A stretch of DNA of 64,000 bases, taken from the NCBI GenBank assembly GCA_035772405.1, contig JAYKKM010000501.1, forward strand, positions 1,485,001 to 1,549,000, given 5' to 3'. Made by a program: the position numbers and the translations under genes. Shown piece by piece: positions 30,084-61,619 of the stretch; the stretch's first letter is position 1; every line of letters starts with the position of its first letter. This stretch comes from Chrysogorgia sp. JL179-B06 (taxonomy: Eukaryota; Cnidaria; Anthozoa; Scleralcyonacea; Chrysogorgiidae). Under the pieces are notes generated by a model. That model searched no databases. It was given only the letters and a program-made list of their open reading frames with translations, and was not told the DNA's origin.

Positions 30084-30087
30084 AGAC
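30084..30087. repeat. BEL target-site duplication (AGAC), left
   Basis: AGAC precedes the 5' LTR and recurs at 40503-40506 after the 3' LTR. Confidence 0.6.
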
Positions 30088-30375
30088 TGTCGGAAACTGG
30101 TTAATATTTTAGTTATCAAGACATTTTTAGGTTTTGTTTAGCTTGCGAATTCTTTGTGCTAAGCTTGCGTAATTTATCGTATGATGTTTGACAGCCAATC
30201 AGAAAGCGAGAAATAGGTGTGTGAATGTAAACAAAAGAGACAGGAAATAGAATTGAGGGCGAGTCTGTCTGGGAAAAGAGAACGTGAATATCGTGAATAT
30301 CGTGAATAAATTGTTACTATAAACATACAACATTTGTGAACTGTTGCGGGAAACTTAGGGAGGCAATCCCCAACA
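30088..30375 (+). repeat. 5' LTR of BEL element, 288 bp
   Basis: TGTCGGAAACTGG ... CAATCCCCAACA (TG..CA ends). Differs from the 3' LTR at one noticed base (AGGTGTG here, AGGCGTG there). Confidence 0.95.
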
Positions 30376-33104: not shown

Positions 33105-34966
33105 AGTCCTGATGCAAATCATGAAATTGAGACGCTGAGGTTTACTAGAGCATTGTTCGGCCTGACATCGTCACCATTCCTACTTGGGGGAGTGATCGAA
33201 CACCACCTGACGTCCTGGGAAAGTCGAAAGCCGGAAGTAGTAGCCGAACTGCGAAAGAGCCTGTACGTTGACGACTTGGTGAGCGGAAAGACAACGGTAG
33301 CAGACGCGAGGACGATGAAGAACGACGCGATTGAGATCTTTAACGACGCCACTTTTACCCTCCATAAGTGGCACTCGAACAAACGTGAGCTCGAAGAACC
33401 GACGAACGACAACGAAGAGAAAACTTTCGCGAAGCAACAGCTAGGAACCCCGACCGAAGGAGACTCAAGTCTTCTGGGACTAGCATGGTCAAAAGATCAA
33501 GACAAAATAAAAGTCGTTATTCCATCCAGTAAAGCTACAACAACCAAACGAGGAATTTTGAGCAAACTGGCTCAAATATATGACCCCCTCGGAGTACTAT
33601 CACCACGAACTGTACAAGGGAAGTTCATTTATCGCGAAGTATGTCAGAGTAAGATTGCATGGGACACTCCGTTAGCAGATGAGCACAAGAATCAGTTGTT
33701 TAAATGGGAGAAGCAATTGCCAGATCACGTAGCTGTACCTCGTTCAATACCTACCTTCCAAGAAGATATCGAGTCCATTGCATTACATGCCTTTGGCGAC
33801 GCGAGTGGTAAAGGTGTTGCGGCAGTTGTTTATGCTGTAGTGAAACAACCGTCTGGTACAACACAAGGGCTCGTAGCGGCGAAGGCGAGATTGGCGAAAC
33901 AAGGGTTAACCATCCCACGTTTAGAACTTGTCTCGGCACATATGGCCGCCAACCTTGTTCATAACGTGGAACAAGCTCTAGACGGGTTCCCCGTGCAAGA
34001 AACGTACGGTTGGCTCGACAGTACTGTCGCTCTTCAATGGATCAAGGGAGGCGGAGAGCATAAGCAATTCGTAGCCAACAGAGTCCAGAAGATCCAGTCC
34101 AAATCAAACATCCAGTGGCGTCATGTACCGACACACACCAACCCCGCCGACGTCGGAAGCAGAGGTGGAGAGGTGAAGCAGAACCAGTTGTGGCTGAACG
34201 GACCAGAGTGGCTCAACGACAACCGTGCCTGGCCTCCAGATATCGTCACTCACGCTACTGAAGAAAGTGAAGCCGAAGCTAAGACCATTAGAACCGTGCT
34301 GGGGTTAATCAACGATGAAACGAACTGTTTCGACCGTATCCTAGAGAAATTCTCATTGCAAAAAACGCTGAGAGTGTGCGCATGGATCTCGAGATTCTTT
34401 GCCAATCTGCATCACCCCGACAGTCGAACATTTGGACCACTAACGACTGATGAACTCGAGCGTCATTTCAAAGTCTGGGAGAAGAAGGTACAACGTAGCT
34501 GTGACAACGAAGAGGACAGAGGTCGACTTAACCTACAAGAGAATCCTCAAGGTATACTGGAATGTAGAGGACGCATTCAAGGTCATTATCCAGTTTACCT
34601 TTCTGACAAACACCTCTTCACAACCAAACTGGTTGAAGACGCCCATTTGCGCACTCTTCACGGGGGAGTGGGGATGACCATGGCTCGAGTTCGAGAGCTG
34701 CATTGGGTCCCGCGACTCAGACAGTTGACGCGCAAGGTCATCAAGAAGTGCTATGGGTGTCGTCGATTCCATGCGAAAGCAGTTCCACAACCACCGCCTG
34801 GTTTGCTACCGTCAGACCGAACCAACGAAGGCCGTCCGTTTGAAGTGATCGGGGTGGACTACGCTGGTCCTATCAAGTACAGAAAAGGTACCAAAGAAGA
34901 AAGAAAGTCGTATATCCTGCTGTATGCTTGTAGTCTTACGAGAGCTGTCTACCTGGATTTAATGCC
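33105..34966 (+). pseudogene. BEL reverse transcriptase end, RNase H and integrase start
   Basis: In frame with the previous part. Contains LFGLTSSPFLLGG, the catalytic LYVDDLVSG, the RNase H region (HAFGDASGKGVAAVVYAV, LVSAHMAANL, TYGWLDSTVALQWI), the integrase zinc finger (H..H..CYGCRRFH) and the first catalytic Asp (GVDYAGPI). The domain is cut at 34966 by the TA-flanked inner element and resumes at 39225. Confidence 0.9.
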
Positions 34967-34968
34967 TA
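34967..34968. repeat. TA target duplication, left of inner element
   Basis: TA here and at 39223-39224. Removing one TA with the 4254-bp insert brings the two integrase halves back into one frame, which fixes the exact ends. Confidence 0.85.
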
Positions 34969-35220
34969 CAATCAATTTTAAAAGTCGTTGGGACACCTGA
35001 GATTTTCTAACATATACTTGATATAATCATCTATTTGACAATGGGGCTACTTTCCCTCCCTCCCCCTCCCTTTACAATGTTGTCTAGTGAAACAAGTTAT
35101 CATTTCGACGAAATTCTCTGTAGATATGGCATACAACATTGAACAGGGGCCCGGGGAATCACAAAAGGGGGAAATGAGTCATAAATCTAGCGATTGTCCC
35201 AACACTTTTGAAAATGATTG
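34969..35220. repeat. 252-bp direct repeat, left copy, itself MITE-like
   Basis: Begins CAATCAATTTTAAAAGTCG..TTGGGACA and ends with the inverse (TGTCCCAACACTTTTGAAAA then TGATTG), so the repeat has its own TIRs of about 26 bp. Contains a C/T-rich tract (TCCCTCCCTCCCCCTCCC). Differs from the right copy only at 35117 (T) versus 39119 (G). Confidence 0.9.
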
Positions 35221-35636
35221 TCCGAACATAATCTTGTAATCTGCTAACAGCACACAACTAATTTAACGCGTTTATTATAGAAATGGCTACCAGTGTACTT
35301 CCCTGTTAAATAATACTAACAACAGAAGAATTAAAGCCGCTTTTATGAACTAAACATCCATTTGTCTGCGGAAAAAATGACAAGTAACTAAACATTACCA
35401 AAATTATTAATAAAAATATTCACATATGTTTTACATATTTTTGAATTACGTTTATGTCCTCGCAACATAAGCTTTTGGTGTTTGTGCTTCTTTTTAAAAT
35501 ATTGTCGTAATATAAATATTGCAATGCAGATTAACACATAAAAAGGTTGAAATGCGATATCATAGAAATTCCGTAGAAAATATATTAAAAATACTACAGA
35601 CCTTCCGGATGTCACATGCCTCGTAGCATACGCGTG
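35221..35636. promoter_or_regulatory. upstream region of the rep gene
   Basis: 416 AT-rich bases between the repeat and the likely rep start. An inverted pair CCGC..TTTTATG / TCTGCGG lies at about 35337-35378. No coding frame supported. The rep promoter should lie here. Confidence 0.35.
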
Positions 35637-36110
35637 ATGGCGGAGTCGCGAACACACAGAAGGAACACAGAAACAATAAAGCAACGTTTGATATATTTGA
35701 TTACATACAGTCAGTGCGATGTCACACAACTATCTAGACAACAATTTGCGGAAATAATATGCGACGCATGGAAATCTCAATCTCGGTCAAGAATCACTCA
35801 GTGGGTTGTTAGTTTAGAGGCCCATGCTAATACTGGGACGCATTTTCACATGGCTATCAAGTTGAGCACAAGATCGCGTTGGTTGTCTATACGAGATTTC
35901 GTCGATGAAAAATACGGAATCAAACTTAATTTTTCAGACAACCACGAGAATTATTATAGCGCGTATTCATATGTAGTGAAGGAAGATCCGGACTTCGTGC
36001 TGTCACCTAACCATCCAGACCTGTCCAATGCCAGCCTTCCCAAGACCACCAATGCCACGAGAAAAAGAAAAACGGTTGGAAAACAAACGAAAACGACTGT
36101 CAGCTTTTGA
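35637..36110 (+). CDS. HUH replication initiator domain (CRESS-like Rep N-terminus)
   Basis: The likely start is ATG 35637 (ATGGCGGAGTCGC); an earlier in-frame ATG at 35616 has weaker context. Motif 1-like WVVSLEAH, motif 2 with the metal-binding pair THFHMAIKL, motif 3 AYSYVVKEDPD with single-Tyr YxxK. These are the three Rep motifs of single-tyrosine HUH endonucleases, which nick one strand and stay bound to the 5' end to start rolling-circle replication. The frame ends at 36110 in a Lys/Arg-rich linker. The helicase half continues in the next frame, so the product is either two proteins, a frameshifted fusion, or damaged. Confidence 0.75.
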   Translation: MAESRTHRRNTETIKQRLIYLITYSQCDVTQLSRQQFAEIICDAWKSQSRSRITQWVVSLEAHANTGTHFHMAIKLSTRSRWLSIRDFVDEKYGIKLNFSDNHENYYSAYSYVVKEDPDFVLSPNHPDLSNASLPKTTNATRKRKTVGKQTKTTVSF

Positions 36111-36939
36111 TGTGGTTGGCATCATCCAGACCAAGAAAATCAAGAGCCGTCTACAGCTTATGGCACTGGCAGCTAAATGGCAAGAGGAGGGGAAAACAGA
36201 TTTAGCCGAGTTCGTGGCGAATCGGGGTCCTAAGGTCGTAAACGAGGCTTTAGAAACAGCAAAGGAGTTGAGTGAAGCTCAGGAGCGCATGGAAAGATCG
36301 AAGAAATCTCGAATAGATTTATTGGAGGAACATTTAGACAAGCCATGTGCCGACGGTTGTCAAGGTGCGTGGTTATCTGCAGCCAAAGAAATTTTGCAGT
36401 TGAATGGCATCACTGAAGAGTCGTTTACAACCGCAGTATATGAAACGTTAAAACGAGGCAGAGGAAAATACCGAAACATTTTCATATATGGTCCGGCTAA
36501 TTGTGGCAAAACCTTCCTTCTTTCACCATTAAAAACGATCTTCGATTGTTTTCTTAACCCTGCTTCGGGTACTTTTGCGTGGCTTGGCGTAGAGACGGCA
36601 GAAGTAGTGTTGTTAAATGATTTCCGATGGAAACCGTCACTGATACCGTGGTGTGAGCTCTTACAAGTTCTTGAAGGAGATGTCGTTCATTTTCCTGCTC
36701 CTAAAAATGTAGTGAATAGAGACATTGTTCTGGAGAAAGATACCCCTTTCTTTGCAACAAGTGATGCACCTCTTGTCCTTATAAATGGCGGGTCTATTGA
36801 CAGGGTTAACACGGAAATGATGCAAGTGAGATGGCACGTATTCAAGTTACACCGACAGATACCACAAGACGAACAAAAAGAGTTAAAACCATGTAATTCT
36901 TGTTTTTCAAAGTTTATTTTAACTAACAGTCACCAGTAA
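36028..36939 (+). CDS. superfamily-3 helicase domain of Rep
   Basis: Overlaps the HUH frame by 83 bases in another frame. The N-terminal linker is basic (REKEKRLENKRKRL). Helicase motifs: Walker A FIYGPANCGKT, Walker B AEVVLLNDFRW, motif C FFATSDAPL, and the Arg-containing MMQVRWHVF. It ends with a Cys pair (CNSC). SF3 helicases form hexamers that unwind DNA next to an HUH nick. The motif set resembles Rep/NS1-type helicases of small DNA replicons and Rep-like genes in invertebrate genomes. The helicase domain is complete and without stops. Confidence 0.8.
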   Translation: MPAFPRPPMPREKEKRLENKRKRLSAFDVVGIIQTKKIKSRLQLMALAAKWQEEGKTDLAEFVANRGPKVVNEALETAKELSEAQERMERSKKSRIDLLEEHLDKPCADGCQGAWLSAAKEILQLNGITEESFTTAVYETLKRGRGKYRNIFIYGPANCGKTFLLSPLKTIFDCFLNPASGTFAWLGVETAEVVLLNDFRWKPSLIPWCELLQVLEGDVVHFPAPKNVVNRDIVLEKDTPFFATSDAPLVLINGGSIDRVNTEMMQVRWHVFKLHRQIPQDEQKELKPCNSCFSKFILTNSHQ

Positions 36940-37439
36940 TCAACATTAAAGTGTCTTTTCCGGGTATGACGTAATCGCTCAAGCGTCTCTCGATACTCGC
37001 ACGATACTCACCACGGTACTCACGTCCCAAAATCAAAATATACCACAAGAGAGTTGTTGCTTTCCCGTTTTCTCATCTTTGATAACTCACTTAATACGTT
37101 TGTAAAATGTAACGAATATGATTAAACGACTTATGCGCTGGGAAAATGAGTTTGTCAACGATACTCGCTTTATATTCTAAAGAAACCTGATCTGTTCTTT
37201 TATATTTATAATTTGGGTGAGTACCGTGAGGCAATTATGTGTTGTTTTGGTTCACTTAAAATAAAAATCACGTAAAAAATAGCAAAGTTCCTTCCCCTTA
37301 AAAGAATTAATAAAACTGTTAACTTTCAATGACCAATTTCTTCCTATTATCACTGTAATGTGGACTTATTGCCATAAACGTGCGGGTGAGTATCGTGGTG
37401 AGTATCGTTGTATGAGCGCCCGGAATGTGGTTTGCATTA
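36940..37439. promoter_or_regulatory. iteron-like array between rep and transposase, candidate origin
   Basis: Seven copies of CGATACTCRC: plus orientation at 36991, 37002, 37014 (CGGTACTCAC) and 37159; minus orientation at 37217 (as GTGAGTACCG), 37386 and 37398. Clustered copies are 11-12 bp apart, about one helical turn. The outer clusters are inverted, enclosing about 360 bp. Regular short repeats next to a rep gene are typical Rep-binding sites. The origin role is inferred. Confidence 0.6.
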
Positions 37440-38528
37440 TTAATATTTCGTTCTAAATCCTTTACATTGTATGACAGCGTCAACGCGTTTTGGCATACTT
37501 AATAAGAGATTGTCAATAAAAGTTACTGAGGTTTGCATTACAGTTTTGCGTACTCTTGTCTTGAATTGACACCAAGTTTCGTTTATTATTCCTTGGGCAA
37601 TAACCTGGTTCACAAGTTCTTTCTTAACTATGTGAAACAGGTTTTCGATTGGATTTAGATCTGGAGAACGCGCAGGAATAGTAAATAGTTTAGCTCCTAC
37701 ATCATCAATCGCTCTCATCGCAGCCTTACTTGTTTGCGACGGATCGTTGTCCATGGTAAACAACTTTTCTTTACGTCGATCAGAAAAGAGAATTGGGAAG
37801 TTTCTTTTCACAAAATCACTGAAATATTTCCCATCCATATGCTCATATTCTTCCACCAAGGTAACTCCTTTCCCGAATGCAATAGCAACAAGGAGGTATA
37901 ACCGTTTTCCACCAGGCAATTCTTTTGATCCCTTACTTGTTATCTGGAGCCCTTCACTTCTTTTTCTCCAGATTTTCCCTTTCGGGGCAACAGCGTCCTG
38001 CATCGGCTTGCTCTTGTATACAAATGAAACTCCATCCAAATAGAACGCGATATTTTTATGAAAAAAATTTGGGTTGTTCTTCAATATTTTTCTACATTTA
38101 CGCGCAAATTGTTTTCGCTTAATGCAATCACGGGAGGTTAGTAGCCCCTTTTTTCGCGCTTGCAAAAAATGGAATCCTAGACACTTAATTTCCCTGTAGA
38201 ATGTTCCATAGGACACACCGGTTGACTGAAGTCCACTATAGATTAACAACTCTTTCAATGTAAAATTTGCGTTGCCCTTACGCAGTCGAAGTAGATCGCG
38301 AACCAAATGTCTGCGATCGCGCTCTGACAACTTTTTTGGTCGTCCAATCGTTGCGCATTTTCTTTCTTCCCTTTTCCCCCTGCGATTGGGTTCTTTCAAC
38401 AATCGCGCTACTGTGGACTTTGAAATACTAGTTTTTGACGCAATTTCACGACATGAATATTTATTATCCATACCAAGGAGCATAACTAATGAGCGCGTTG
38501 TGCTCGATATCTTTCCATGGAAAACCAT
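37440..38528 (-). CDS. Tc1-type DD34E transposase, 362 residues
   Basis: First helix-turn-helix at about 20-45 (YSCREIASKTSISKSTVARLL), GRPKKL linker (62-67), second DNA-binding helix region at about 88-115. The DDE core has D165 (FYLDGVSF), D260 (FTMDNDPSQTS) and E295 (SPDLNPIENLF), exactly 34 residues apart between the last two, as in Tc1. Full length and without stops. It should cut at the TIRs and insert at TA, matching the TA duplication of the element. Convergent with rep; its start faces the right direct repeat. Confidence 0.9.
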   Translation of the reverse strand: MVFHGKISSTTRSLVMLLGMDNKYSCREIASKTSISKSTVARLLKEPNRRGKREERKCATIGRPKKLSERDRRHLVRDLLRLRKGNANFTLKELLIYSGLQSTGVSYGTFYREIKCLGFHFLQARKKGLLTSRDCIKRKQFARKCRKILKNNPNFFHKNIAFYLDGVSFVYKSKPMQDAVAPKGKIWRKRSEGLQITSKGSKELPGGKRLYLLVAIAFGKGVTLVEEYEHMDGKYFSDFVKRNFPILFSDRRKEKLFTMDNDPSQTSKAAMRAIDDVGAKLFTIPARSPDLNPIENLFHIVKKELVNQVIAQGIINETWCQFKTRVRKTVMQTSVTFIDNLLLSMPKRVDAVIQCKGFRTKY

Positions 38529-38970
38529 TGTAAGAATTTACAACGGTCTACGTGTGCTGGGGTAACTTTATATTACTTTGTCGTCATATTGAGTTACAAA
38601 TCAGACGCATACGATGTTTACAATTACGTTGCAAAGGCACACCCTTTACGTCATCATGACTCTAACATTTTCGAATGTATCTCTTGATTTATTTAGATAT
38701 TCCTTCAAGATTTTCAATGATATTCCCGATTCGTAAGAATTTTTTAAGACTTGTATGCGTCAGCTTGAAACGGCCATATTCCTCATGAAATTATTCCGTG
38801 ATATTATTACATAACCCCCCTGTTTTAAGTACTATTGAATTTGTGAAATGATAGTTTATTGAAGCTGGTAATTCGTATCCTCTTTAAACGTATTAACTTT
38901 CCACAATTATCGGGAATGCGAAGTCTTATATAATTTTTTTATGTCAGGGACTGGAACTTTCGAATTCGGA
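38529..38970. promoter_or_regulatory. upstream region of the transposase gene
   Basis: AT-rich with no frame. It ends in AATTCGGA at the junction with the right repeat, matching TCCGAA at the left junction in inverted form. Confidence 0.35.
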
Positions 38971-39222
38971 CAATCAATTTTAAAAGTCGTTGGGACACCT
39001 GAGATTTTCTAACATATACTTGATATAATCATCTATTTGACAATGGGGCTACTTTCCCTCCCTCCCCCTCCCTTTACAATGTTGTCTAGTGAAACAAGTT
39101 ATCATTTCGACGAAATTCGCTGTAGATATGGCATACAACATTGAACAGGGGCCCGGGGAATCACAAAAGGGGGAAATGAGTCATAAATCTAGCGATTGTC
39201 CCAACACTTTTGAAAATGATTG
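38971..39222. repeat. 252-bp direct repeat, right copy
   Basis: Same orientation and length as 34969-35220 with one substitution. Followed by TA and the resumed integrase frame. Confidence 0.9.
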
Positions 39223-39224
39223 TA

Positions 39225-40105
39225 GTTTGGACACCCAAAGATTCATCCAAAGCATGAAACAGTTTATTGCAAGACGAGGGAGACCCCGGAAGATCTACTC
39301 CGACAATGCGAAGACGTTCGTGGCAGCAGCAAATTGGTTACGAACAGCACAAAATGACGAGAAGCTAAATGAGTTCCTGAGCAAGAATCAGATAAGATGG
39401 CAGTTCAACCTGAGTCGCGCCCCATGGTGGGGCGGACAATTCGAGCGCCTGATCGGGTTGGTGAAGAGAGCTCTTCATAAAACCATCGGGAAAGGATTGC
39501 TGAGATGGGACGAGCTGAAGGAAGTACTTGTTGACATCGAAGTGGCGTTGAATAGCAGACCTCTTGGCTACATGGAGGATGACGTGCAACTACCAACGTT
39601 AACGCCTAACTCCATGATGTTCGTTGGAATTACGTTCGCGCCAGAGTTAGAAACGCATCATATAGAAGAGAAGGATCTACGAAAGCGTGCAAAGTATGTC
39701 TTGAAATGCAAACAAGCAATGTGGCGTCGATGGACTACGGAGTATCTTCGCGGGTTACGAGAGCGTCACAACCAGAACCACACGGAGACATCATTCACCG
39801 TCAAACCGGGCGACGTTGTCATCATTCGATCAGATGAACGGAGTCGTGGGAAATGGCCCCTCGGAATCGTAGAGGAGTTGTACAAGGGACGCGATGGCGT
39901 GGTTCGGGCAGTGAAACTTCGCGCTGGGAAAAGCTACCTTGAACGGGCTGTGAATCACCTTTACCCACTCGAACTTTCCTGCGATCGTTCGGAAGTCAAG
40001 GAACCAGTCCAATTGGATCCAGGAGCACAGGCGTTCCGACCTAGGCGAGATGCTGCAGTAGCTGCGCAACAACGCATCAATGACGTGGTCGAAATGGAAC
40101 TTTAA
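39225..40105 (+). pseudogene. BEL integrase C-terminal part and DUF5641
   Basis: Resumes the integrase core: IYSDNAKTFVAA (second catalytic Asp) and APWWGGQFERLIGLVK (catalytic Glu), then the C-terminal DUF5641 region (KPGDVVIIRSDERSRGKWPLG). The frame upstream of 39225 runs into the direct repeat and is not original coding sequence. Ends with TAA at 40103-40105. Confidence 0.9.
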
Positions 40106-40203: not shown

Positions 40204-40214
40204 TGGGGGGAGAG
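40204..40214 (+). promoter_or_regulatory. polypurine tract of BEL element
   Basis: GGGGGGAGAG directly before the 3' LTR, the expected plus-strand primer. Confidence 0.8.
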
Positions 40215-40502
40215 TGTCGGAAACTGGTTAATATTTTAGTTATCAAGACATTTTTAGGTTTTGTTTAGCTTGCGAATTCTTTGTGCTAAGCTTGCGTAAT
40301 TTATCGTATGATGTTTGACAGCCAATCAGAAAGCGAGAAATAGGCGTGTGAATGTAAACAAAAGAGACAGGAAATAGAATTGAGGGCGAGTCTGTCTGGG
40401 AAAAGAGAACGTGAATATCGTGAATATCGTGAATAAATTGTTACTATAAACATACAACATTTGTGAACTGTTGCGGGAAACTTAGGGAGGCAATCCCCAA
40501 CA
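40215..40502 (+). repeat. 3' LTR of BEL element
   Basis: 288 bp, same ends as the 5' copy, followed by AGAC. Confidence 0.95.
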
Positions 40503-55229: not shown

Positions 55230-56558
55230 GTGTTTGAGCAGATTGAACTTTCTGAAACGGACAGCGAACCTGGACGTTTACGAGCAGAAAATGATGACCC
55301 TCTTCGGAGGACAAACAATCCTCTTCGGAGGAATCAAAATCAGCCTCTTCGGAGGACACAAAATGAGCCTCTTCGGAGGAAAAATGAGCCTCTTTGGAGG
55401 AAAAATGAGCCTCTTTGGAGGAAACCTAATCTGCCTCTTCGGAGGAAACCAAATCTGCCTCTTCGGAGGAAACCAAATCTGCCTCTTCGGAGGAAAAATC
55501 ATCCTATTCGGAGCGAACTAAATGATAAAAGTAAACGTTTGGTCAAGCAACAATGTGTGAAAGCTGTGGTAGTTCACGAGCAAAATAATGCTAGCATTGT
55601 TAATGTTAATGTAAATGATATTTGCAATATGTATGATTTAGATCTTTGTTTAAATGGCTATAGATTTTCTGTACGAAAATCATTTAGACGGTCAAATCTC
55701 AGACGATGTAGAGACCGTGAACCGTCAAGAATACCTCTCAAAAAAATTATGTCTGCCATGAGAAAAAATAGAAAAACAATTAAGCATTTTCTGAGAAGTT
55801 CCACTCCTAAATCATCGATTTTGAACAAGTTAGCTACCAACTACAAAGAATATTATTTAAAATATATACACAGGAATATATATAATTTTTTCACACATTC
55901 TGTTAAATTTAAGAACAGTATTCACACAGCAGTGAATTCCTTGTCCTATGCTGTAAACAGACATTCTATGACTGCCAACTGTAATTTTGGCAATGAGCAA
56001 TATTGTGTCTCTGAAAGAAAGCTCTTAATATCTGGTGATATTGAATTAAATCCAGGTCCTATGCAAAATAAAAACAACAAAGTTAGAAAAACAATACCAT
56101 CGCATTTACTGTTAGAACAAAGATTAGGACAATTTCATTTGAGGCCATTTGATGTTGGTGGTGCAGGTGATTGTTTTTTTAGAGCTATTTCACATCAGCT
56201 ATATGGTGATCCAAGTCATCACTTAGATATCAGGGTTGCCGGTATTACATATATGAGAGAGAATCCTGAGAGATTTATTGAAAGCAATACAGAGTATTCC
56301 TGGGGACAATATCTTAACAGTATGTCTATGCAAGGGACATGGTGTGATGGTCTCATTATACAAGCTGTTGCAGACCAACTTAATTTAAGAATTGTTATTG
56401 CTGAGTCAAATGAACATTTTGCCGAGTACAATATGATACGAGCTATAACTTCACTACAACGACCAACCGATATTTATTTGGGTCATATGGATGAATACCA
56501 TTATGTATCAACATTGCCATGTACAATTTCAAATTTACCTGATAAATCAGCACACTGA
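55230..56558 (+). CDS. OTU-protease protein with PLRR repeats and 2A-like motif, 442 residues
   Basis: Residues about 25-95 are a repeat of PLRRKN-type units. Residues 100-260 are basic and mostly disordered (KRLVKQQCVKAVV, RRSNLRRCRDREPSR). A 2A-like motif GDIELNPGP at 269-277 would make the ribosome skip before the last Pro. After it comes an OTU cysteine protease (about 290-435): FDVGGAGDCFFRAISHQLYG carries the Asp and catalytic Cys, and DEYHYVS the His. OTU enzymes remove ubiquitin. The frame is intact up to TGA 56556-56558, after which the same frame continues into Rep. So the intended product may be one polyprotein cut by 2A, or this stop may be genuine. Confidence 0.8.
   Translation: MFEQIELSETDSEPGRLRAENDDPLRRTNNPLRRNQNQPLRRTQNEPLRRKNEPLWRKNEPLWRKPNLPLRRKPNLPLRRKPNLPLRRKNHPIRSELNDKSKRLVKQQCVKAVVVHEQNNASIVNVNVNDICNMYDLDLCLNGYRFSVRKSFRRSNLRRCRDREPSRIPLKKIMSAMRKNRKTIKHFLRSSTPKSSILNKLATNYKEYYLKYIHRNIYNFFTHSVKFKNSIHTAVNSLSYAVNRHSMTANCNFGNEQYCVSERKLLISGDIELNPGPMQNKNNKVRKTIPSHLLLEQRLGQFHLRPFDVGGAGDCFFRAISHQLYGDPSHHLDIRVAGITYMRENPERFIESNTEYSWGQYLNSMSMQGTWCDGLIIQAVADQLNLRIVIAESNEHFAEYNMIRAITSLQRPTDIYLGHMDEYHYVSTLPCTISNLPDKSAH
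55308..55505 (+). repeat. coding tandem repeat of CCTCTTCGGAGG hairpins
   Basis: Ten units of 18-27 bases. Nine contain CCTCTTCGGAGG or CCTCTTTGGAGG and one is degenerate (CCTATTCGGAGC). In RNA, CCUC-UUCG-GAGG is a stem closed by the very stable cUUCGg tetraloop. The same units encode the PLRR repeat. Confidence 0.85.
56034..56060 (+). promoter_or_regulatory. 2A-like ribosome-skipping motif
   Basis: Encodes GDIELNPGP, matching the consensus DxExNPGP. It would release the repeat-rich N-terminal part from the OTU part during translation. Confidence 0.8.
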
Positions 56559-58343
56559 TTTGGAAAAATTACAGGGAAACGGTCAACTGAGGACCCTCAA
56601 TGTAAGCAGAAGAAAAATAAGTATATGAAAGAATATATGAAAACAAAACGTTCAACTGAGGACCCTCAATGTAAACAGAAAAAAAATGAGTATATGAAGG
56701 AATATATGAAAAGAAAAAAGTGTGAACCTCAATCTTTACAGAGTTTAATATTAAAGTTTCATAATATTGTCTCCCAAGGACACTTTACATATGCAGTTGT
56801 TGTGACCAATTGTGGTATAAGCATAGTGTCACCCACTACAACACTATTGAAAACAAATCCTAGTATCCAAAAAAATCTTCTTCATAAAACAAGTGCTGAT
56901 AATGTTGAATGTTTGTGTAGATCATGTCATGGTTACTTAGTGAAGAATAAAGTTCCACCTTGTGCTGCAATAAATGGGATGCAATTCCCAGCAAAACCAA
57001 TATTTTTTGACCTGAATGAATTAGAGTGTAGATTACTTGCTCCTAGATTAGCATTTCAAAAACTCATGCAAGCTCCTAGGGGGAAACAATTCAAAATCAA
57101 TGGCAATATTGTTGATGTACCAGCAGATATTAGTAATACTGTTAGCATGTTACCAAGGTTAGCAGATCAAACTGGAACAATTAAAGTTAACTTAAAGAGA
57201 AAACTACAGCTTTATCTAGATGAAGTAGAAATACCTGCTGGAATCACAGATACCATGTTAACATCCACTGATTTCATAACAGACAACGAACGACAACAAA
57301 TTCTGAATGTTGCACCAGGTGAAGGCAGTAGACCTCTAAGTGTATTCAGAGATAAATATTCTGAAGAATTGGCATATCCAGGTATTTTCCTTGGCCAAAA
57401 ACGACCTGACAATACTAGTAGACTTACAGATGTTCATTATAGTGAAATTTGTAAATCTGAGTTAAGGCGGTCAGACAGAAGGGCTGCTATGTGTGTAGAG
57501 AATATCTTTTTTAAAACAAAGAAACTACAAATGAAGCTGTTACTAGGGCAATCTCAAGTTGCCTTGAGGAAACGCAAAGGAAACAATAGATCGATTAAAG
57601 CAGGCCAGCTCAAACAAAAAGGGGCATTAGAGAAACTAATTAATTATGATGAAGGGTTTAAATTTCTGAGAGCATTAAGAGGCTCGCCTCCATATTTTCA
57701 AAAGGCTAAAAAAGATATATTTGCAATGATAAGACAGTTAGGCCCAGCTTCATTATTTTGCAGTTTCTCTTCTGCAGAAACACAGTGGACTCATCTTCTC
57801 AGAATACTTAGTAAACTTGTCACTAACAGAGAATACACTGACACTGACACTGAGCTAGAAAATCTTAACTGGGAGGAAAAATGCAAATTGATTCAAAGTG
57901 ATCCTGTCACTTGTGCAAGGCATTTTGACTATCAAATAAATCAGTTTTTACGAAAATTTCTGAGTAGTCTTGCACCTCTGGGGAAAATTGCAGACTGGTT
58001 TTACAGAGTTGAGTATCAAGAAAGAGGCTCACCTCATATTCATATGTTAATATGGCTAGAAGATGCTCCACTATTTGGTGTTGACAATGATAACAAAGTC
58101 ATAGAATTTATTGATAAAATAATTAGTTGTAAGAGGCCAACTGATAATCCTGAGTTACTTAAACTTGTGAACAGACAAGTGCATCGACATTCTCATACTT
58201 GCCGGAAAAAATCCAAGACACAGTGTCGTTTTAATTACCCACAACCACCTATGAGGTCAACCAAAATTATTTATCCCTTAGATATTGATATTGAAGATAG
58301 TGAGCTTACACAGCATAAAATCAATACAGAAACATTTGAATGA
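56559..58343 (+). pseudogene. Helentron Rep: DUF6570 and HUH nuclease
   Basis: N-terminal KNKYMKEYMKTKRSTEDPQ repeats, then DUF6570 (CLCRSCHGYLVKNKVPPCAA, KPIFFDLNELECRLLAPRLA), a linker, and the Helitron-type HUH nuclease with GSPHIHMLIWLEDAP (His-x-His) near residues 475-490 of the 56625 frame. It ends with a Cys/His group (HRHSHTCRKKSKTQCRFNYP). The frame runs out at 58343; the collinear continuation with the catalytic Tyr pair is in the next frame. Confidence 0.85.
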
Positions 58344-59029
58344 TTCAAAAGAGGGTGAAAATATCACATTTGACCAGCTGCTAATAAATTTGAAAACTGA
58401 ACAAAATTATTTCCTTGCTATACGTTCAGAACTTAATGCACCAACCATATTTTTAAAGCGGCAGCCAAATGAATTGAGGATTAACAATTATAATCCTGCT
58501 TGCCTTAGTGCATGGCAAGCTAACATGGATATTCAATTTGTCCTTGATGTCTATGCAAGTGCAATGTACATTGTATCATACATTTCTAAAGCACAAAAAG
58601 GAATGAGTGAACTATTGAGAACTGCCTGTGATGAACCTAGACAAGGAAACTCTACCATCAAACAACAAGTAAGAGATATTGGTAATAAATTTTTGAATAA
58701 TGTTGAAATTAGTGCACAAGAAGCAGTTTATATTGTGCTACAACTTGCAATGAGAAAATCATCTCGTTAAGTAGTATTCATAAATACATCACCCCCTGAA
58801 GATAGGGTTCGCCTATTAAAACCAATAAAAGACATCATTGATATGGACGATGAGTCAGAGGAAATTTATGCAACAGGTCTCTTAAAGCGATATACCAAAC
58901 GACCTGTTAGTGTTGAGCATGTATCTCTTGCTGACTGGGCTGCATGGTATGACTCATGTGGTAAACCATATATCAAAATATCTCATGAACTTGACATTGA
59001 TAACCTTCCATTTGAGACAAACATTAACA

Positions 59030-59061
<32 letters not shown>

Positions 59062-59560
59062 GAAAAGGAGGAACAAAAAGAGCCTTGTGATAAATAAAAG
59101 CATAAGAAAAGATTAAAAGCTAGAATTATACGAAGTGTTTGCTACAATAAAGAAGTAGATTCTGAGAAACATTACCGTGAATTGATCATGTTGTTTACTA
59201 CATGGAGAAATGAAGAAACTGACTTGATTGGTAATTGTTCTTCATCTTCAAGTAAAAGATGTAATAGATGACCAAATGAAACAATATGCTATATGCACTG
59301 ATGACTTAAATGAAATTCAAGATCAATTAAACAATGATGATAATTATGACTTGGTTGCCCCAACAACACAAAACATTGAACGACAAGATGCATCTGAAGG
59401 TACACAAGAGCTGCATCCTGATTTTAATGACAATTATGATCTTTCCAGTGATATTGGAATCCCTTCTACTGCTTCAAATAGTGAACTGATATTGAATGAA
59501 TTACAGGACCATGATTACAGAAACATGACACAGATGTTGAACAAAGAGCAAAAATAATTT
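58330..59560 (+). pseudogene. Helentron Rep tyrosine region and linker, three frames
   Basis: 58330-58770 has [20 protein letters not shown], the two-Tyr YxxxY..K motif that nicks DNA in Helitrons. A TAA at 58768-58770 stands where Gln fits the family. 58771-59097 continues in frame (VRLLKPIKDIIDMDDESEEI, SLADWAAWYDS) to an Asp-rich run coded by GATGAT repeats, then TAA at 59095. The remaining linker is in a third frame from about 59235. Confidence 0.75.
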
Positions 59561-61619
59561 TTCTTATCATATTTTACATCTCATTAAAACAACTGATAAG
59601 CCATTCCACTGTTTTCTCAGTGGAGGAGCTGGTGTTGGAAAGTCACATTTGACTAAAGCACTTTATCAAGCAGCACTAAAATATTACAATACGAGAGCTG
59701 GTGATGACTTTCACCAAGTAAAGGTATTATTGCTTGCCCCAAAAGATAAAGCTGCTTTTAATATTAAAGGCAATACAATACACAGTGCCCTTGCAATACC
59801 AGCATGCCAATCTTTAAAAAATTACAAACGTCTTGACTCAAGCAGACTAAATACTTTACATAGTCAACTTGGTGGTGTAAAACTAATATTTCTTGATGAG
59901 ATATCAATGGTAGAGAGTACAATGTTTAATGTTCAGATTAACAACAGACTCAAAGATATTAAAGGAAGCAAAGAAAACTTTGGAGGTGTAAGCATAATTG
60001 CAATTGGAGATTTATTTCAGCTAGAACCTGTGATGGATAGATACATATTTAAAGATCTTGACAATTCAGAATATGCTATTCTTGCTCCTGATCTATGGCA
60101 AGACTACTTTAGAATGTTTGAGCTTAAAGAAATGAGACAGAGGGAAAGTAAAGTGTTTGCTGAAATTTTAAATAGACTAAGAGAAGGCAACCACACTGCA
60201 GATGACATTTTAAAAATTAAGGAAAGAATGATTCAAGAAAATGGCATACATGATCCAGTGCATATACCACATTTGTTTATTCAAAATGTTAAAGTAAATG
60301 AGTTTAATCAGAGAGTCCATGATGCAGCAACTGGTGAGAAGTATTGTATTAAAGCAGTTGATAGTGTTATAGGAGCTAACTCTGAACTAAGAGATAAAAT
60401 TATGCACCAAATACCAGATGATCCAAGAAAAACTAAACAAATAATTTCAAACCTTCAATTAGCATTGGGTGAAAGGACAGAAATAGCAGTAAATATACGA
60501 ACTGATGATGGCATGACAAATGGTGCTGGTAATGTCATTAAAAAAATACATTTAAACCAAAGAGACAAACCATCAGGGATAGTATGGGTACAGTTTGACC
60601 ATGCTGATGTTGGTGAACGTACATGGACTCCAATAAAACCAATTACTACTCAGTTTGCTGTTGGTAGAAATAGAACAGCTCAAGTTGTAAGAAAACAGTT
60701 TCCATTACGGCCAGCTGCTGCTAAAACAATCCATCGATCACAAGGTGACACTGAACAAAAAATAGTTGTTAATTTTAATACTAGAAGAGCAATACCTCAC
60801 ATTCATTATGTTGGTCTTAGCAGAGTAACAACTATAGAGGGGTTGTATATCACCGACTTGTGTGAACAAAAAATAGCTGTCAATCCTCACGTGAAGACTG
60901 AAATGCAAAGTCTAAGAACAGAACGCTATCTTAAACTTAGTGTGTCTCCTGTTTATAATGTTGATCAGGTTTTATTTAAACTTTGCTTCCTTAATGCAAG
61001 GTCTTTGCACAGGCATATTGATGATGTTCGACATGATTTAAATTATACAAGTACTGATATCAATATTTTTTCAGAAACAAGGTTTATTAGTTCAGATAAT
61101 GATAATATGTATGCAATTGATGGGTATACCTTGTTTAGGAATGATGGTCAACCTTCTACAACTTCAAGACCTTATGGAGGTACAGCAGTTTTCAGTAGGG
61201 TTGAATTTATGCCTGGATATCCATGTGTTCATAATACTAACGGTATTGAGATAACTATTATGAAAGTAATGGTTCTTCCTCATGTAACCATAATAGGTGT
61301 ATATCGCTCACCTAAAATCCCAGTACAGCAATTGTGCCATGCTTTAAATGAGGTACTGGCCTTTTCGTCTTCTCAGTTCAATATTGTGATTGGTGATTTT
61401 AATACCAACTGGTTGGATGAAAATGATAGGAGGCCTTTATATAATCTATTTGTTAATGAAAATCATTACAGACAATTGATAACCAGTTATACTACTAACA
61501 ACCGAACCACTATAGATCATATTTATACAAATTTACCAGAATCACAAACTAATGCTCACATATTAGAAACCTATTTCTCTGATCACAAGTCAATATGTGC
61601 ATTAATTAATTGTTTTTAG
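59561..61619 (+). CDS. PIF1-type helicase fused to EEP endonuclease
   Basis: The frame opens before the first ATG (59649), so the helicase begins upstream: Walker A GGAGVGKSH lies at about 59625-59651. Walker B KLIFLDEISMVES, motif III SIIAIGDLFQLEPV, motif IV LKEMRQRESKVFAEIL, motif VI HRSQGDT and YVGLSRVTTIEGLYI. The endonuclease follows (about residues 445-656 of the 59649 frame): FLNARSLHRHIDDV, IFSETRFIS, IGVYRSP, IVIGDFNTNW, TIDHIYTNL, FSDHKSICAL, with all key motifs. In an intact element it would be the C-terminal part of a Rep-helicase-nuclease. This segment has no stops. Confidence 0.85.

Follow-up and report, generated by a model that had tools for sequence, protein, structure and literature searches.

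Classic members of the Tc1/mariner group (the IS630-Tc1-mariner superfamily) encode a transposase alone and are not known to have long terminal direct repeats. In this study, which was based on a 64,000-nucleotide stretch of the genome of Chrysogorgia sp. JL179-B06 (GenBank assembly GCA_035772405.1, contig JAYKKM010000501.1, positions 1,485,001 to 1,549,000 of the forward strand; hereafter the window), we describe an element that pairs a Rep gene with a Tc1-type transposase gene. It resembles Tc1/mariner elements in its DD34E transposase, TA target and inverted-repeat ends, but it adds the Rep gene and repeats like long terminal repeats (LTRs), which are called L here, on both sides of a core called I. 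The original prediction, made from the sequence letters of the window, stated that no named family with this design was known. This stands in so far as no Tc1-type element with a Rep gene was recognised in the open-access literature (Repbase was outside this search), but it is limited by a fungal element from 2011 that contains a Rep and a broken transposase (PMC3198968).

This fungal precedent, the geminivirus-like transposon of Tuber melanosporum, has Rep and transposase frames and terminal inverted repeats, and is present in many near-identical copies (Liu et al. 2011, PMC3198968). As described there, its reconstructed copy has an interrupted Rep, two broken transposase frames, 37-bp terminal inverted repeats and no obvious target duplication. 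Both elements combine a Rep of the circular single-stranded DNA (ssDNA) virus type with transposase frames in one eukaryotic repeat that ends in inverted repeats. Measured against that description, the family in the window is set apart by a DD34E transposase with TA, open frames and 252-bp direct repeats with solo copies, and further by tandem arrays, excision-like joints, a parvovirus/papillomavirus-type helicase and correlated protein distances. As far as its description goes, the Tuber element is a precedent for the gene pairing, not for the L-I-L architecture.

Helitrons follow a rolling-circle logic with an HUH nuclease, their RepHel protein has a Pif1-type helicase, and they insert without a target duplication, whereas the element in the window has an SF3 helicase and a TA duplication. 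In Teratorn, a herpesvirus is the other component of the unit. Described as 180 kb in size with a piggyBac-like transposon (PMC10175614), Teratorn is similar in that a transposon and another type of mobile element are fused in one unit.

Among viruses and virus-like repeats, the Rep of CRESS-DNA viruses joins an HUH nuclease with a single-tyrosine YxxK motif to an SF3 helicase (PMC6668415), which is also the organisation found here; in contrast to these viruses, the element has no capsid match, is integrated with target duplications and has a DDE transposase. Repeated NS1-like genes bear the Repbase names DENSOV_HM in Hydra and PIVE in planarians, and the part of PMC3198968 that deals with them mentions no transposase. 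DENSOV_HM, known here from its description alone, could be a relative of the element. The RepE1 cressvirus Cress4479 of a sea anemone is alike in its E1-like Rep, its cnidarian host and its high-copy integration, but it encodes a capsid-like protein, and the word "transposase" does not occur in the available text of its description (PMC11071296).

Structure of the element and its genes

The element extends from position 34969 to 39222 (4,254 bp) with a TA on either side (34967-34968 and 39223-39224), and its borders were confirmed to the base. It starts and ends with a 252-bp terminal direct repeat, L5 (34969-35220, plus strand, CAATCAATTTTAAAAGTC...GAAAATGATTG) and L3 (38971-39222, plus strand), which have one difference between them and enclose the 3,750-bp core I (35221-38970, plus strand), which holds both genes and has the inner ends TCCGAAC...TTCGGA. 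Each L has its own terminal inverted repeats, CAATC...GATTG, and the outer ends of the whole element (34966-34985 and 39206-39225) are 90% complementary. No Rfam match was found inside the element.

The insertion site falls within the integrase-coding part of a BEL/Pao element, the pol gene of which (33105-40105, plus strand; Peptidase_A17, Integrase_H2C2, rve and DUF5641) is split by the element. The state before insertion was judged from the BEL reading frame across the joint: the integrase frame (frame 2) is open once one TA is kept, which agrees with the earlier view that the interrupted integrase fixes the ends. No second BEL copy was found among the fetched loci, and no flank search was aimed at empty BEL copies. 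The interrupted retrotransposon would itself be young, as its probable LTRs, direct repeats of 292 nt (30084-30375 and 40211-40502), are 99% identical.

The transposase gene (37440-38528, minus strand) has an intact frame of 365 codons from stop to stop, or 362 aa counted from ATG, and its product matches Pfam DDE_3 at 54.6 bits. The residues D165, D260 and E295, with 34 residues separating D260 from E295, were invariant in 40/40 sequences of alignment A3, which comprised the window transposase and 39 of 120 listed homologues, and the predicted full-length DD34E transposase was thereby confirmed. A PHROGs search returned weak matches for it. The DD34E triad, the TA target-site duplication and the terminal inverted repeats are all traits of the Tc1/mariner superfamily; the restriction to a single transposase gene is not shared, as a Rep gene is present in the window copy and in others.

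The Rep gene is on the plus strand and consists in the window of an N-terminal piece with the HUH nuclease motifs HFH and YVVK (35616-36110) and a C-terminal piece with an SF3 helicase (36028-36939, GPANCGKT). All of the motifs that had been predicted, i.e., HxH, YxxK and the Walker motif, were found, but the frame is broken over two frames, and the Rep stretch falls 14 nt short of that in the copies on contigs C472 and C282, where Rep is open over 445 aa. The helicase piece matched Pfam Parvo_NS1 at 24.5 bits (cut-off 20), while the nuclease piece alone matched no Pfam family; when single Rep pieces or a profile were compared with the sequences of solved structures, only weak matches emerged, and PHROGs gave nothing better than E 0.16 for the Rep pieces. 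The modelled fold of one Rep family member resembles CRESS nucleases and the helicases of adeno-associated virus (AAV) and papillomavirus. Judged from this model, the nuclease is CRESS-like, as had been proposed for the whole protein, while the helicase is nearer to those of parvoviruses and papillomaviruses. Of the 120 Rep homologues listed, 75 have a length of 430-470 aa, and 68 of these made up Rep alignment A2.

Rep has the HUH nuclease and SF3 helicase of CRESS-DNA viruses and the NS1-type helicase of parvoviruses; the capsid gene that is a trait of both was not found in the element. Among the six frames of at least 80 codons that lie wholly inside the element and are neither Rep nor transposase, the best match was DUF6962 (E 0.028, below cut-off). 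Two scans by pattern, one with a single Rep and one with alignment A1, covered 2.9 million IMG/VR contigs and confirmed no relative.

Other copies, solo repeats and arrays

The genome that was searched comprises 781 Mb in 522 contigs (C numbers denote these contigs), and the layouts of the copies were obtained by mapping the parts of the element onto 20 fetched stretches. The L-I-L layout was found at two places on C472, one of which is missing most of the transposase, and on C282, and in a damaged form at C363 and C310. C292 has the layout L-I-I-I-I-L, C93 contains (L-I)n arrays and L-L doublets, and L stands alone on C5, C272, C148 and C475. In one array of C93 (stretch L054), head-to-tail Ls that lack end bases at the joint occur twice (joints 4448 and 8628). 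The search for other two-gene copies, which the original prediction had suggested, yielded two with both frames open, and in C472, C282, C292 and other copies the two genes are enclosed by the same L repeats. That the Rep and the Tc1 transposase form one unit is supported by these observations.

The ends were highly regular. In the copies and solos outside stretches L002 and L003, the outer left ends read TA|CAATC in 12/12 cases and the outer right ends G|TA in 12/13 (C282 is without the last G), while the inner joints have no TA and read GATTG|TCCGAA (8/8) and TTCGGA|CAATC (9/9). Genome-wide, the left end of L occurred 154 times within two mismatches (control, 0). Exact TA-flanked left ends number 56. 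For 25 of them an exact right end lies at the distance expected of a solo (250-261 bp in 22 cases, and 220, 317 and 510 bp in the other three), for six it lies at 3.4-15.5 kb, and for the remaining 25 none is listed. Both Ls of one insertion seem to derive from one template, as with LTRs, because private variants were common to both Ls in three of the four insertions that have such variants.

Units of the family also stand in tandem. The units of the C292 array are 4-14 sites apart among themselves and at least 17 from nine cores elsewhere. In relatives, arrays are marked by a regular Rep spacing of ~3.92 kb (C97) and ~4.08 kb (C428). On C43 (1130769-1212448), head-to-tail units ~3.94 kb apart extend over some 80 kb with at least 16 Rep rows without a stop, of which eleven of the 16 listed score equally, and ~20 kb in the middle of the array have no listed rows. 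C156 (1014061-1074133) and C276 (265256-282166) carry arrays of a longer subfamily (~5.1-5.4 kb) with an open Rep frame of ~502 aa.

Excision of the Tc1/Sleeping Beauty type leaves a C[A/T]G triplet in which the middle base is undecided. Four joints between two cores were found by exact pattern, i.e., GGA-CTG-TCC three times (all in the C292 array) and GGA-CAG-TCC once (C445), and they read as if an L had been excised in the Tc1 manner from between two cores.

Association of Rep and transposase

The genome-wide rows of both genes are the matches listed, diverged subfamilies included; the pairing was counted over 95 of 119 Rep rows (24 shorter second pieces were dropped) and 112 of 113 transposase rows. 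A convergent transposase row was present within 2.5 kb of 44 of the 95 Rep rows, on 28 of 48 contigs, and the addition by eye of C345, C224, C57 and C474 from a second search raised these numbers to 48/95 and 32/48. Rep frames are also open in diverged subfamilies. Among the inverted pairs found, none of at least 90% surrounds the transposase alone.

Outside this genome, the organism-named homologues among the matches listed were cnidarian for both proteins, namely Actinostola, Oculina and Porites for Rep and Dendronephthya, Paramuricea and Exaiptasia for the transposase. Ten outside contigs of equal size were common to the two sets of homologues: six came from 120 Rep rows and 117 of 120 transposase rows and four (396782, 3522, 3714 and 3937) were found by eye, on the assumption that equal size means the same contig. 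A jitter control, which covers the first six only, gave six or more matches in 33 of 5,000 runs (mean 1.7), and for contigs above 5 kb three matches were observed against a mean of 0.009; chance could account for one or two of the matches between short contigs.

The earlier suggestion that trees of both proteins be compared was answered by their distance matrices. Across 11 pairs, ten of which were matched solely by equal contig size and in which some proteins are partial, the Rep and transposase matrices correlated at r 0.80 (Mantel test, 0/100,000 permutations). With seven pairs, r was 0.91 (1/5,040 orders, which is the observed order itself), and it was 0.77 (11/20,000) when the family of the window was left out together with the two pairs nearest to it. 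The two proteins appear to have travelled together.

As a separate observation, transposase rows at C439 (11112860-11132885) follow each other in tandem at intervals of ~3.1-3.2 kb; no Rep row accompanies them, and they are possibly a Rep-less array of the family.

Candidate origin

Iterons are found at the origins of CRESS-DNA viruses, and the element has a repeat cluster that resembles them. Between the two genes (36991-37407, 417 bp, unstranded as a feature), seven repeats of GTGAGTAYCG with at most one mismatch are present on both strands, at 36991, 37002, 37014 and 37159 on the minus strand and at 37217, 37386 and 37398 on the plus strand. The whole window contains 13 such matches against 3.3 expected, and of the six outside the cluster four are in the BEL LTRs. 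The 8-base core of the motif is repeated 5-8 times in each of 9/9 copies, which are close relatives, and the cluster region folds better than 100/100 shuffles. These repeats look like iterons bound by Rep at an origin. L also folds well (z -3.05) and has conserved blocks, but as a candidate origin it ranks behind the cluster that lies between the genes. The cluster, together with the 252-bp direct repeats and their solos, the tandem arrays and the C[A/T]G core joints, had not been part of the original prediction.

Proposed mechanism and its alternatives

We consider it reasonably likely that the element spreads through copying of a circular form by Rep and pasting of one or more units by the transposase at the repeat ends. 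A circle with one L, or none, would arise through recombination between two Ls or through excision. Rep would nick the origin at the iteron-like cluster and generate head-to-tail concatemers, from which the transposase would pick a left end and a right end of L and insert a solo L, an L-I-L or a longer array at a TA. Where the transposase takes L alone, the core would close with a C[A/T]G footprint and remain replicable; the L-I-I-I-I-L layout would be explained in this way because cores without L could still replicate. A single scheme would yield solo Ls, L-I-L copies, longer arrays and Ls that are identical at birth. From the arrays, the shared L variants, the excision-like joints and the iteron-like repeats, all of which fit, we infer rolling-circle copying combined with pasting. 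Whether this amounts to a distinct class of eukaryotic transposons, with copy-out by a rolling-circle Rep, paste-in at TA by a Tc1-type DDE transposase and LTR-like repeats as transposase ends, seems to us evenly balanced.

Several observations weigh against this mechanism. The window copy is not intact, with its broken Rep frame. The Ls of the C310 insertion share no private variant and differ at 19 columns, and one variant of L5 in the window is absent from L3. The three CTG joints share one array and possibly go back to a single event, and since the L ends start with CAA, a C[A/T]G footprint requires that one base be trimmed on each side. Among the matches listed for two queries, no transposase was found near the Rep rows of C43, C156, C276, C374, C11, C236, C450 and other Rep groups, and no Rep row lies within 2.5 kb of 68 of the 112 transposase rows, although among these 68 the rows of C93 and C445 actually have a Rep close by that was missed or displaced. 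Members with Rep only or transposase only, or with more diverged partners, may exist. Furthermore, arrays can grow by unequal crossing-over and gene conversion can keep the Ls of a pair alike, and neither a circle nor a nick site nor any activity of Rep was seen.

The main rival is an ordinary cut-and-paste transposon of the Tc1 type with Rep as a passenger, in which L-I-L moves as a block and gene conversion and recombination between Ls account for the rest. The TA duplication, the DD34E triad and the inverted-repeat ends are enough for such an element, LTR-like recombination produces solos without transposition, and the quite different Ls of C310 are what it would allow. However, Rep is probably under selection because its frames are open in diverged subfamilies and its distances follow those of the transposase, which a passenger does not explain; additionally, core-core joints without L require cutting at L ends that lack TA flanks, and the private variants shared in three of four insertions argue in the same direction. 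We regard this explanation as unlikely, though it deserves to be kept in mind. Less probable still is a kinship with circular ssDNA viruses, in which the element would be an endogenous Rep plasmid without a capsid that acquired its integrase by capturing a Tc1 transposase and is still partly extrachromosomal. The viral type of Rep and the iteron-like cluster point that way, as do the homologue rows on unit-size contigs of 3.5-4.5 kb (among the matches listed, 24 of 120 for Rep and 20 of 117 for the transposase), but assemblers also turn repeats into short contigs and these are no proof of circles; the missing capsid match and the outcome of the IMG/VR scans also speak against it. A chance nest, in which an unrelated Tc1 element lies inside or around a Rep-bearing sequence, would agree with those rows in which one gene is present and the other is not nearby. 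It was rejected and is scarcely credible given the recurrent convergent pairing (48 of 95 Rep rows), the ten shared outside contigs and the correlated distances, and no inverted pair of at least 90% among those found brackets the transposase alone; the design originally proposed has here held against the condition under which it would have been a coincidence of two elements.

Other features of the window

At 55230-61619 the window also contains a rolling-circle transposon of the Helentron-like kind, with successive frames for an OTU protease, Helitron_like_N, a PIF1 helicase and an endonuclease domain. A minus-strand frame of 512 aa at 15576-17114 matches the integrase core rva_4 at 253.9 bits.

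Significance

The cut-and-paste reaction itself adds no copies of a transposon, and rolling-circle replicons usually have no integrase. If the preferred mechanism of Rep copying and transposase pasting is true, the stable coupling of the two activities within one family would amount to a DNA transposon of the copy-out/paste-in kind in animals. What this model specifically predicts is unit-length circles and C[A/T]G joints between cores. Such a family would also stand between ssDNA replicons and transposons as an intermediate form that is still living, and it could plausibly give rise to long tandem arrays that resemble satellites. There is a fair chance that the family combining Rep and Tc1 deserves a class of its own.

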